A DNA stretch of 64,000 nucleotides from an alpha proteobacterium SCGC AAA536-G10 (GTDB lineage: Bacteria; Pseudomonadota; Alphaproteobacteria; Puniceispirillales; Marisalimonadaceae), in contig ARQU01000005.1 of NCBI GenBank assembly GCA_000384615.1, positions 25,294 through 89,293 of the forward strand, in the 5' to 3' direction. The position numbers and the translations under genes were made by a program. Each line of letters opens with the position of its first letter. Position 1 is the first letter of the stretch. The notes under the pieces were generated by a model, which was not told the DNA's origin, searched no databases, and saw nothing but the letters and a program-made list of their open reading frames with translations. Below are positions 3,838-6,780 of this stretch, in pieces.

Positions 3838-5286
3838 ATGCAAATAAGACAAAGGTTAGAGTATCCAATCTGGAAAATACCATACTTTTGTATAGCAGGT
3901 CTTTTTGTGTTTATTAAATTAGTTAAAGCGGGTGCTTTGACCCTTTTGATTAATAAAAATTTTTTTAATAAAAGGATAAACTTAACTTTAAAACTATTTA
4001 ATTTACTTTTTCATAAACAGAAAAAAGAAGAAGTTGGGAAAAAACTTTTAAGGTGTTTAATTGATTTAGGTCCAGGATACATTAAGTTTGGGCAAGCTTT
4101 ATCAACACGACCCGACCTGGTTGATAAAAAAACATGCGAATATTTAAAAAAATTACAAGATGATATCAATCCCTTTTCGAGTTCTATTGCAAAAAAAATA
4201 ATCGAGTCAGAAACTCAAAATTTAGTTGAAAATATTTTTTCCTCTTTTGATGAAAAACCAATTGCAAATGCATCCGTTGCTCAGGTACATACCGCTATTC
4301 TAAAAAGTGGTGAAACAGTCGCTATTAAACTTCTTAAACCAAATATCAAAAAAAAGTTATTTAACGACTTTATCTTTTTTTACTGGATATCAAAATGTCT
4401 TGAGATTGCTATCCCTAGTATCAAGAGATTCAAACTCTCTAAAAACGTTGAGGTATTGTCTGAAGTTTCATTAAACGAACTTGACTTAACATTAGAAGCA
4501 TCTGCTGCAGAAGAACTTTCTGAAAACTTCAAAGATAGTCCAAATTACAAGATACCTAAAATTTTCTGGGAACTTACTAGTAAAAACATGCTCGTTCTTG
4601 AGTATATAAAAGGAATTCGAATTGATGATATAAATGCTCTAAAAAAGGCGAATCACAATATAAAAAAAATAACAGAAATTGGCATTGAAGTTTTTTTTCT
4701 TCAAGTATTTCGTGATGGTTTTTTTCACGGCGATATGCATCCAGGTAATATTTTAATTAATCCCAAAGGTGTTCTTGTTCCAATTGATTTTGGTATTATG
4801 GGAAGATTGTCAAACAAAGACCGTCAATTTTTGGCTTTATTACTTACATATCTTCTTAATAAAAATTATAAGAAAGTTGTAGAAATCCATTCAGAAGCGA
4901 ATATGCTTGGAACAGATATTTCTCATGATCATCTTGCACAAGCTATAAGAGCAATTTGTTCACCCATCTTGAACAAGCCTATTGGAGAAGTTTCTTTAGC
5001 TAAATTATTAGGGCAGATATTGGGTTTATCCAAAGAATTTAATATTGAAGTACAGCCTCAATTTACTTTACTACAGAAGACTATGTTAATGGCAGAAGGT
5101 ACAACAAGACAAATTAATCCTGACATTAATATGTGGGATTTATCTGCCCCTCTTATTGACAAATGGATAAATGATACTCATGACCCTTTTAAAATTCTTG
5201 AGGAATGGTTTCATAAAAATAAGTTGGTTTTATTAAAAATACCTGAAATTATTAATAAATTTGATAAAATTTTATCAAAAAAATGA
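3838..5286 (+). CDS. ubiB: Ubiquinone biosynthesis ATPase/kinase-like protein UbiB
   Basis: UbiB is a membrane-associated atypical kinase-like ATPase (ADCK/Abc1 family) needed for ubiquinone synthesis. In the 482 residues I see the KxGQ motif (KFGQ, 83-86), the alanine-containing loop ASVAQV (145-150), the invariant Lys164 in VAIKLLKP, HGDMHPGN (297-304) and the metal-binding DFG (317-319). The C-terminal transmembrane helices typical of proteobacterial UbiB are not obvious here: the tail is amphipathic and ends shortly after residue 470. It begins on the base after the ubiE stop. Its last codons lie inside a 20-bp palindrome described separately. Confidence 0.95.
   Translation: MQIRQRLEYPIWKIPYFCIAGLFVFIKLVKAGALTLLINKNFFNKRINLTLKLFNLLFHKQKKEEVGKKLLRCLIDLGPGYIKFGQALSTRPDLVDKKTCEYLKKLQDDINPFSSSIAKKIIESETQNLVENIFSSFDEKPIANASVAQVHTAILKSGETVAIKLLKPNIKKKLFNDFIFFYWISKCLEIAIPSIKRFKLSKNVEVLSEVSLNELDLTLEASAAEELSENFKDSPNYKIPKIFWELTSKNMLVLEYIKGIRIDDINALKKANHNIKKITEIGIEVFFLQVFRDGFFHGDMHPGNILINPKGVLVPIDFGIMGRLSNKDRQFLALLLTYLLNKNYKKVVEIHSEANMLGTDISHDHLAQAIRAICSPILNKPIGEVSLAKLLGQILGLSKEFNIEVQPQFTLLQKTMLMAEGTTRQINPDINMWDLSAPLIDKWINDTHDPFKILEEWFHKNKLVLLKIPEIINKFDKILSKK
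5260..5279. repeat. Perfect 20-bp palindrome I before coaBC
   Basis: TTTGATAAAATTTTATCAAA is a perfect palindrome. It encodes the last residues of UbiB, before the stop codon. It is immediately followed, with no intervening base, by a second perfect 20-bp palindrome. Confidence 0.8.
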
Positions 5287-5299
5287 AAATTTTCATTTT
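5280..5299. repeat. Perfect 20-bp palindrome II before coaBC
   Basis: AAAATGAAAATTTTCATTTT is a perfect palindrome spanning the ubiB stop codon. As RNA it could be a weak hairpin that terminates ubiE-ubiB transcription, although there is no clean U tract after it. As DNA it has the same AAAA/TTTT core as palindrome I and as the inverted repeat next to the coaBC start. Confidence 0.75.
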
Positions 5300-5323: not shown

Positions 5324-5340
5324 TCCTAAAACTTTTAGGA
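5324..5340. promoter_or_regulatory. 17-bp inverted repeat over the coaBC ribosome binding site
   Basis: TCCTAAAA-C-TTTTAGGA has perfect 8-bp arms around one base and ends 9 nt before the coaBC ATG. The AGGA of the right arm is the only Shine-Dalgarno candidate, so a hairpin here would hide it, and a protein bound to the DNA would cover the promoter-proximal region. Because CoaBC itself carries a DNA-binding type domain, this is a candidate autoregulatory operator. That role is inference. Confidence 0.55.
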
Positions 5341-5349
5341 ATTTGTCTA

Positions 5350-6780
5350 ATGAATAATATCTCACATCTCATTTCTCTACTTGGTGGAACAGGGTCAGTA
5401 GCAGAAAAACTAAAAATTAAACCTTCTGCAGTTTCAAATTGGAGAAAGCTCAATAAGATTCCAAAAAACAAAATAAGTGCCATATTGTCCATAAGCTCTC
5501 AACTTAAGATCAATGCCGAAGATTATTTACCAAGAAAAAATTTAAATAATTTTAATGTTAAAATACTTTTAATTATTTGTGGAGGTATAGCGTCATATAA
5601 ATCTCTTGAAATAATTAGATTAATGAAAAAAACAAACATTGATCTTGAAGTTGTAATTACTAAATCAGCTCAGCAATTCATTACTCCTTTATTAGTAACA
5701 AGCTTGATTGAAAAAAAATGTTACACTGACTTATTTTCTGTTGAAAATGAGTCAAAGATGAACCACATTATGCTTGCCAGAAAGCCGGATTTTATTTTAG
5801 TTGCTCCTGCTACTGCAAACATAATGGCAAAACTCGCTAATGGAATTGCAGATGATCTTGCAAGTACAATTTTACTTGCATCATTCTCTCAAATAATTTT
5901 AGCTCCATCGATGAACCCTGTTATGTGGAGTAATTTAGCAACACAAGAAAATTATCAAAAACTTTTAGGAAGAGGTATTGAATTTATAGAACCTGATGTT
6001 GGAGAAATGGCTTGTGGAGAAAGTGGAACGGGTAGGTTCCCAGAACCTAAAATAATTTTTGAGAAAATAGTTTCAAATATCAATAAAAGAAAAAATACAA
6101 CTGACCAATTTAAAGATGTATCAATCATAATTACAGCAGGTCCGACAATAGAAAATATCGATCCAGTTCGATTTATTAGCAACAGATCATCCGGTAAACA
6201 AGGTTTTGCAATTGCTTCTGAATTTTCTAAAAGAGGAGCAAGAGTGACTCTAATTTCTGGTCCAGTAAATATTCCATTTCCAAAATGTGCAAATATAATT
6301 CAAGTTACAACTGCTAAAGAAATGTTTGAGGAAACAATGTCACAACTACCTGCTGACATATTAATTTGTAGTGCTGCAGTGGCCGACTGGAAATTAGTTC
6401 CAGAATCTTCTTCTAAAAAGAAAATTAATAATGAAAATAAAATAAAAAAAACAAAACAAGAGTTATTATTCAAGACCATAAAGAACCCTGACATTCTTGC
6501 AACTGTGGCCAAAAGCAATCTAAGGCCTAGTATTGTTGTTGGATTTTCTGCTGAAACTAATAACGTCATCAAAAACGCAAAATCAAAATTGGTTTCTAAA
6601 GAAATTGATCTAATAGTAGCTAATGATGTAGGAGAAAATAAGGTTTTTGGAGACGATTTTAACAAAGTGTTTATTATTGATGAAAATAATTGTGAGGAAT
6701 GGTCTGAACAAAGCAAAAAATCAGTGGCCTCTAATCTAGCTGACAGAATAAATAAGATTTTTATTAATAGTTATATTTGA
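5350..6780 (+). CDS. coaBC: CoaBC (phosphopantothenoylcysteine synthase/decarboxylase) with N-terminal HTH domain
   Basis: CoaBC makes 4'-phosphopantetheine from phosphopantothenate and cysteine in coenzyme A synthesis. The enzyme part is complete: His139, PATANI (153-158), APSMNPVMW (185-193) and the cysteine lid ACGESGTGR (Cys222) belong to the FMN decarboxylase; ISNRSSGKQG (276-285) and AAVADW (342-347) belong to the CTP-dependent ligase. Normal CoaBC begins near residue 70 here (KILLIICGG). The first 62 residues are extra and read as a Cro/YdaS-like helix-turn-helix: GGTGSVAEKLKI, then KPSAVSNWRKLNKIP. No in-frame start lies between the two parts, so this is one fused protein of 476 residues. 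The domain call is by eye; the CoaBC call is certain. Confidence 0.95.
   Translation: MNNISHLISLLGGTGSVAEKLKIKPSAVSNWRKLNKIPKNKISAILSISSQLKINAEDYLPRKNLNNFNVKILLIICGGIASYKSLEIIRLMKKTNIDLEVVITKSAQQFITPLLVTSLIEKKCYTDLFSVENESKMNHIMLARKPDFILVAPATANIMAKLANGIADDLASTILLASFSQIILAPSMNPVMWSNLATQENYQKLLGRGIEFIEPDVGEMACGESGTGRFPEPKIIFEKIVSNINKRKNTTDQFKDVSIIITAGPTIENIDPVRFISNRSSGKQGFAIASEFSKRGARVTLISGPVNIPFPKCANIIQVTTAKEMFEETMSQLPADILICSAAVADWKLVPESSSKKKINNENKIKKTKQELLFKTIKNPDILATVAKSNLRPSIVVGFSAETNNVIKNAKSKLVSKEIDLIVANDVGENKVFGDDFNKVFIIDENNCEEWSEQSKKSVASNLADRINKIFINSYI

Follow-up and report, generated by a model that had tools for sequence, protein, structure and literature searches.

Organization of the coaBC Locus

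The analysed stretch of DNA, hereafter called the window, comprises 64 kb and harbors a coaBC gene whose product carries a helix-turn-helix (HTH) domain in front of the enzyme part. The following features were assigned at this locus:

3838–5286, + strand: upstream neighbour, read as ubiB from its translation (ORF)
5260–5279, no strand: another perfect palindrome of 20 bp, TTTGATAAAATTTTATCAAA, which abuts the one at 5280–5299 and falls within the 3' end of ubiB; imperfect in relatives
5280–5299, no strand: candidate operator AAAATGAAAATTTTCATTTT, a perfect 20-bp palindrome that holds the only AAATGAANNNNTTCATTTW of the genome (same-genus motif count)
5324–5340, no strand: perfect 17-bp palindrome TCCTAAAACTTTTAGGA, 9 bp ahead of the start codon
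5350–6780, + strand: HTH-CoaBC fusion gene, 476 aa (ORF; TIGR00521, 407.4 bits; NF046037, 39.3 bits)
5359–5505, + strand: carph-isopro/Cro-like HTH domain, residues 4–52 (NF046037 above its curated cut-off; four AlphaFold2 helices; dN/dS 0.10 and 0.20)
5422–5451, + strand: predicted recognition helix, residues 25–34, with invariant S26, A27, S29, and N30 (AlphaFold2 helix; invariance in 23 aligned fusions)
5506–5553, + strand: linker, residues 53–68, of varying length across the order (alignment)
5560–6075, + strand: CoaC flavoprotein (decarboxylase) domain, residues 71–242 (PF02441, 104.9 bits)
6115–6678, + strand: CoaB (ligase) domain, residues 256–443 (PF04127, 211.7 bits)

According to the ORF list, the frame of the fusion gene is open from the ATG at position 5350. 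The CoaBC model TIGR00521 covers residues 69–467 and, with its score exceeding the cut-off of 219.7 bits, identifies the protein as CoaBC over the whole length of the model. Invariant columns of the alignment include H139, N189, C222, N278, and K283, and we take these residues to have roles in CoaBC catalysis. The first fold match of the full AlphaFold2 model is the mycobacterial CoaBC 6TGV, which is the same enzyme but, according to an excerpt of the report describing it, has its CoaC part at residues 1–179 and no head (PMC7794376). A reading of the window from the sequence alone had placed an HTH ahead of the point where CoaBC normally begins, and this was borne out, as NF046037 matches residues 4–52 and the TIGR00521 match sets in at residue 69. 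The HTH-CoaBC fusion is real and conserved. Enzyme and predicted DNA-binding domain share one polypeptide chain, which is the arrangement of a trigger enzyme whose head would bind DNA.

The CoaBC Head Resembles Phage Cro Proteins and Is Maintained by Selection

The sequence-only reading had been accompanied by proposals for a profile search against HTH families and for a fold prediction, and both returned an HTH. In the profile search, the carph-isopro model NF046037, a family that names the domain only, yielded 39.3 bits with the whole protein and 44 bits with residues 1–69 at a cut-off of 38, which makes the head a member of this family. P22_Cro (PF14549) and YdaS_toxin (PF15943) match the same residues with 21.3–25.7 bits, which is below their gathering scores of 30.2 and 30, respectively. 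In the full-length AlphaFold2 model, which was built from 22 aligned sequences from this order and has a mean pLDDT of 87.1, four helices (residues 4–10, 14–21, 25–34, and 39–51) precede the CoaC domain, whereby the 10-residue means of pLDDT range from 82 to 93 over residues 1–60. A separate model of residues 1–64 has a mean pLDDT of 90.9. Thus, the head is confidently modelled as a four-helix HTH, and helix 25–34 is, in our reading of the predicted fold, the recognition helix.

The closest solved relative of the head by sequence is the Cro protein of the Xylella prophage Xfaso 1 (3bd1; E 0.0011). The same protein is the best Foldseek match of the head model (E 0.024, probability 1.00), with N15 Cro and P22 Cro ranking lower and nothing found by Foldseek at E 0.001 or better, and matches in PHROGs are phage DNA-binding proteins and regulators. 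Xfaso 1 Cro, P22 Cro, and YdaS share the four-helix HTH with the CoaBC head but are stand-alone proteins, whereas the head of the window is fused to an enzyme and scores below the P22_Cro and YdaS Pfam cut-offs. The structural matches of Foldseek also include the HTH-bearing enzymes HEPD, MPnS, and HppE; we know of no DNA binding by the HTH-like parts of these enzymes.

Among 23 aligned fusions, G12, G13, L21, S26, A27, S29, N30, and P38 are invariant. The median dN/dS of the HTH codons 2–58, calculated according to Nei-Gojobori, is 0.10 in one clade (28 pairs, L002–L009) and 0.20 in another (153 pairs, L010–L027), compared to 0.13 and 0.10, respectively, for 170 CoaC codons in the same two clades; the dS filter removed no pairs, and L028–L030 belong to neither clade group. 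Judged by these ratios, the HTH head is under purifying selection. Since it is also kept in all 29 genomes of the window's genus that have a CoaBC match, the head is not a product of chance.

The statement that there is no alternative start codon between the two parts of the protein did not hold, as a TTG is present at codon 46 (5485–5487), inside the HTH. Internal start codons differ among the relatives. A translation start at codon 46 was rejected on account of the selection on the HTH, which likewise disfavours a main start further downstream. The case that had been named as speaking against the fusion, a start near residue 66, is opposed by the same low dN/dS values across the HTH.

The Cro-Like Fusion Appears Confined to One Order

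In order to describe the distribution of the fusion, 61 genomes were surveyed (the own genome plus 60 others), 51 of which gave a CoaBC match. The Cro-like head is present in 49 of these 51 genomes, and in the other two (G060 and G058) the contig ends too early. The alignment extends from the head onward in 29 of 29 genomes of the window's genus and in 15 of the 22 others; in G037, G040, G046, G052, and G054, the head is followed by a longer linker. A contig-database search led to six matches at 81–82% over residues 1–471 or 1–476, namely five from SAR116 and one from an alpha proteobacterium, as well as two distant matches from Prochlorococcus. The order of the window (Puniceispirillales) presumably corresponds to SAR116. 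The CoaBC head is the only place found in the own genome with the HTH query and the best carph-isopro match in all 25 order genomes examined, 8 of which lie above and 17 below the NF046037 cut-off.

In a sample of the class, 291 of 385 genomes match the profile of the fused protein. Among the matches listed, five from the order start at model positions 1–4 and the others at position 25 or later. In a sample of the phylum (375 matches in 398 genomes), the window's genome starts at position 1 and the others, among the matches listed, at position 38 or later. Several class and phylum matches begin at positions 25–51, part of them across stop codons, and in seven of the genomes with a stop-free match that sets in within the head or linker (G121, G182, G294, G388, G506, G696, and G702) the CoaBC-head profile found no Cro-like head. 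Because the other listed class and phylum matches start later and the seven that were read lack a Cro-like head, this type of fusion seems to be characteristic of one order within these samples. As to the question whether the fusion occurs in related genomes, a partial answer can be given: it is found in all relatives of the order with a readable gene start and was not seen in the class and phylum matches listed from outside the order, of which seven starting within the head or linker were read.

Candidate Operators Upstream of coaBC

The candidate operator at 5280–5299 overlaps the ubiB stop codon with its left half, whereas its right half is non-coding. Apart from this site and the abutting palindrome at 5260–5279, the window contains no perfect 20-mer with an even centre. 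AAATGAAnnnnTTCATTT is located directly upstream of coaBC in 25 of the 29 genomes of the window's genus. AAATGAANNNNTTCATTTW likewise occurs in 25 of the 29, each with a copy just 5' of coaBC. Eight extra copies in the genus lie away from coaBC, six of which represent one shared sequence, and two of these six (L209 and L216) look like a coding coincidence, as each overlaps a small ORF at its start. A control pattern occurred 0–2 times per genome in the AT-rich genomes of the genus. A promoter scan, with four sigma-70-like matches versus 1.5 expected, located no promoter. The palindrome TCCTAAAACTTTTAGGA (5324–5340) had been the first operator candidate and was dropped, as it is absent from the upstream sequences of the 28 other genomes of the genus.

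Half-sites that point outward in the window's genus point inward in the order's other families, where the motif reads TTCACAN{3,4}TGTGAA. In 25 genomes (24 from the other families plus G031 from the window's genus) this motif occurs at 16 sites, 13 of which are located directly upstream of HTH-coaBC, whereas a reversed control pattern gave no site in the same genomes. Outside the genus, 13 copies are distributed over 12 of 20 loci, 28–68 bp before the start codon chosen by the script. The half-sites TTCACA/TGTGAA are found 51 times in 2,600 bp of upstream sequence of these 20 loci versus 28 times in the other 59,678 bp. In 27 CoaBC loci lacking a Cro-like head, whose base composition was not matched, there are no palindromes and two half-sites in 6,750 bp. 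Among the 20 loci outside the genus, eight lack the perfect palindrome, and no half-site occurs in 130 bp upstream at L033. The other three TTCACA palindromes are located in genomes of family f3 (L160, L173, and L174), flanked by a gene read as TpsB and one read as TpsA.

Palindromes of single upstream regions were also compared with shuffled sequences, leaving out L146, L152, and L156. In this test, 38 of 46 upstream regions were not significant at 0.05, and eight reached p ≤ 0.05 (L135, L141, L151, L071, L147, L031, L032, and L034), whereby the best palindrome of L032 and L034 is not of the inward TTCACA type. Combined p values were 1.5e-4 for the 20 CoaBC regions, 8e-4 for two hydrate epimerases, and 0.038 for seven HisZ; all other groups exceeded 0.05. 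Since the operator motifs were read from the same upstream regions in which they were later counted, their presence there is by construction and the test lies only in their scarcity elsewhere. The palindrome, which is scarce elsewhere and located ahead of the fused gene, is put forward as a candidate for a specific operator. The claim that CoaBC can bind DNA is well supported computationally by the combination of a Cro-like HTH and a rare upstream palindrome in many relatives.

An Unrelated Ribbon-Helix-Helix Head on CoaBC in Other Lineages

In G702 (family f174) and G506 (family f177), CoaBC is preceded in frame by a FitA-like ribbon-helix-helix domain (PF22513; 62.6 and 35.7 bits, respectively, cut-off 27). 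Another 18 CoaBC starts, for most of which a long open frame in f174 or f177 was the reason of choice, so that the sample gives no frequency, added 12 FitA-like heads, each above the Pfam cut-off, resulting in 14 of 20 in total (L234, L238, L239–L246, and L248–L251). These proteins share with the CoaBC of the window the enzyme, the presence of a DNA-binding head, and an upstream palindrome, but differ from it in the unrelated fold of the head and in the motif. Allowing for up to two mismatches, TGATWGCANTGCWATCA occurs in 18 copies within 2,100 bp upstream of the loci with a ribbon-helix-helix head and is present at 12 of the 14 (not at L238 and L250), with two copies 22–23 bp apart in six loci. 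The remaining 16,114 bp of these loci and the six loci lacking a ribbon-helix-helix head contain no copy, and the 742,853 bp of all other loci analysed contain one. TGATWGCANTGCWATCA was derived from the loci that were counted, and the counts refer to loci rather than whole genomes. This unrelated head points in the same direction as the Cro-like one, namely that the heads of CoaBC would bind DNA.

Similar Heads Occur on Other Enzymes

A carph-isopro survey of 289 genomes of the class gave matches in 83 genomes, 52 of them above the cut-off. Among the matches listed, 70 were read in two sets of 30 and 40. Most of the first 30 resemble Mic60-type membrane proteins, and part of the 40 were identified. 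For representatives, family searches assigned the enzyme behind the head to CarA, Ccr, SerA, PyrB, ArgB, PdhA, GlmU, and NAD(P)H-hydrate epimerase/dehydratase, and Pfam identified HisZ, Mitofilin/Mic60, and a prephenate dehydratase whose head is of the HTH_3 type. For HisZ and the TorD-like proteins, the top-scoring NCBIfam models stayed below their own cut-offs. The heads of the CarA, Ccr, SerA, PyrB, and hydrate epimerase (L071) representatives exceed the carph-isopro cut-off, and those of HisZ, ArgB, PdhA, TorD-like, and GlmU representatives lie below it. Carph-isopro/YdaS-like heads on CarA, Ccr, SerA, PyrB, ArgB, PdhA, GlmU, and hydrate epimerase were seen at L074, L120, L126, L122, L078, and L123, with further such loci at L133, L136, L138, L141, L142, L137, L150, L071, and L151. 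L055 and most of L052–L081 carry carph-isopro heads on Mic60/mitofilin-like membrane proteins, as confirmed by Pfam for L055 only, and some of these genes adjoin a gene read as uroporphyrinogen-III synthase. YdaS-like heads are also found on TorD-like chaperones (L146–L149, L156, and L157), some of which have GTCATAG-like words upstream.

With the CoaBC-head profile, the nearest sequences are six of the seven HisZ heads (E 5.6e-19 to 9.1e-17), followed by Ccr and one Mic60 and then, more weakly, by CarA, SerA, PyrB, ArgB, and TorD. The profile misses the seventh HisZ (L132, f124, E 0.81), PheA (0.48), and GlmU (2). It might therefore be that some heads were acquired separately. The HTH-HisZ fusions at L135, L139, L140, and L143–L145 have a palindrome of the TTCATATnATATGAA type upstream, whose half-site is similar to that of CoaBC. 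TTCATATNATATGAA occurs at six sites in 5 of 11 genomes, five of them upstream of HTH-hisZ (head unconfirmed for G368, G386, and G404); G307 has an imperfect copy, and no site was found in three f124 genomes. Similar heads with similar half-sites (TTCACA and TTCATA) on two enzymes support the view that the head may read DNA.

HTH-CarA genes at L074, L126, and L188 have TGGGAA/TTCCCA palindromes upstream. TGGGAAN{4,6}TTCCCA gave eight sites in five genomes, four of which are located upstream of carA (G086, G314 twice, and G391). Both sites of G217 lie away from carA, and the two sites of G766, where carA was not located, have the same sequences as those of G217. The reversed control gave three sites in G314. 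Operators of CarA are thus only partly supported, and for the enzymes other than CoaBC and HisZ the operators are suggestive only.

CoaBC as a Putative Repressor of Its Own Gene

Enzymes with a DNA-binding part that acts on their own pathway are known. NadR is an enzyme-repressor whose DNA-binding part regulates its own pathway, and BirA and PutA are termed repressors in an excerpt of a published report (PMC6978683). HTH-CoaBC would resemble these three proteins in such regulation, which we infer, and differs from them in the enzyme, in the Cro-like type of the head, and in its restriction to one order within the samples. Among the titles and opening lines of abstracts listed from the open-licence PubMed Central literature, we found no HTH-CoaBC fusion, and no use of the name carph-isopro was found in that literature. 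CoaBC as an enzyme-repressor with a Cro-like or a ribbon-helix-helix head is new to us, while enzyme-repressors as such are an established kind.

The explanation that we favour with considerable confidence is that CoaBC acts as both enzyme and transcription factor in this order, repressing its own gene and probably sensing CoA; we infer its DNA binding, repression, oligomeric state, and ligand. Autoregulation, and most simply autorepression, is suggested by the Cro-like head, the scarce palindrome at the own gene, and the lack of a second obvious target, and the second, unrelated DNA-binding head adds to our confidence in it. The Cro-like HTH would bind palindromes about 28–76 bp upstream of its own start codon, namely TTCACAnnn(n)TGTGAA in the other families and AAATGAAnnnnTTCATTT in the window's genus, and bound CoaBC would repress coaBC. 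According to the excerpted report on mycobacterial CoaBC, that enzyme is a dodecamer with CoaC at its core (PMC7794376). A comparable oligomer would present many HTHs and could bridge neighbouring half-sites. As stated in the same excerpt, CoA and acyl-CoAs act as inhibitors of the M. tuberculosis enzyme and most likely do so at the active site of CoaB (PMC7794376). The ligand state of the CoaB domain (CoA/acyl-CoA versus CTP/phosphopantothenate) probably tunes DNA binding. It is plausible by analogy that the enzyme reports pathway status, as had been proposed from the sequence. Type III pantothenate kinases operate without CoA feedback, as noted in an excerpt of a review (PMC12570885). A kinase of this type was found in all 20 order genomes, whereas CoaA was found above the cut-off in none of the 20, with weak matches below the cut-off in five. 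The kinase of the order should therefore lack CoA feedback, the pathway might be throttled at coaBC transcription, and a CoA-responsive brake at CoaBC would fill the feedback gap of the type III kinase.

It could also be that the HTH does not bind DNA and serves protein-protein contacts or a structural purpose instead, and that the palindrome belongs to another regulator. HEPD, MPnS, and HppE among the structural matches are compatible with such a role, and so is a Mic60-like membrane protein that has a related HTH but is a less evident candidate for DNA binding. However, the palindrome tracks the head, being absent from the 27 headless CoaBC loci and having 13 of its 16 genome-wide copies at the fused gene. 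S26, A27, S29, and N30 are invariant, and the quite different head on CoaBC elsewhere brings its own upstream palindrome, and we consider an HTH without DNA binding improbable. An activation of coaBC, or an action on distant promoters instead of self-repression, would be in line with the palindrome between the TpsB and TpsA genes of three f3 genomes, but this second place is seen in f3 only, and the distance of 28–68 bp from the start at the 13 coaBC sites is usual for repression, so that we give activation or distant action an even smaller chance. Finally, the extension might be untranslated or the enzyme might start downstream, with the HTH frame as a remnant. The TTG at codon 46 would allow for this, but dN/dS values of 0.10 and 0.20 in the HTH, a frame that is intact in 49 of 51 genomes, and invariant helix residues make a remnant highly improbable.

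Autorepression by CoaBC, as favoured here, may represent one case of a wider pattern, for which we see slightly better than even chances. In this pattern, pathway enzymes of Alphaproteobacteria would time and again have become self-repressors through the addition of small DNA-binding heads, namely CoaBC at least twice with unrelated heads (Cro-like in this order and FitA-like ribbon-helix-helix elsewhere) and, with Cro/YdaS-like heads, HisZ, CarA, ArgB, PyrB, SerA, Ccr, and others. Each head would read its own palindrome and sense the pathway by way of its enzyme, substituting for dedicated transcription factors. The occurrence of two unrelated heads on the same enzyme suggests that the pathway is naturally sensed at CoaBC. 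For the marine bacteria of this order, the analysis predicts that one of the enzymes of coenzyme A synthesis contains the regulator of the pathway, and it names the DNA site. If the wider pattern is true, it would provide a testable account of how biosynthesis is controlled without dedicated regulators in Alphaproteobacteria, as well as enzyme-site pairs for the study of DNA recognition by small heads.
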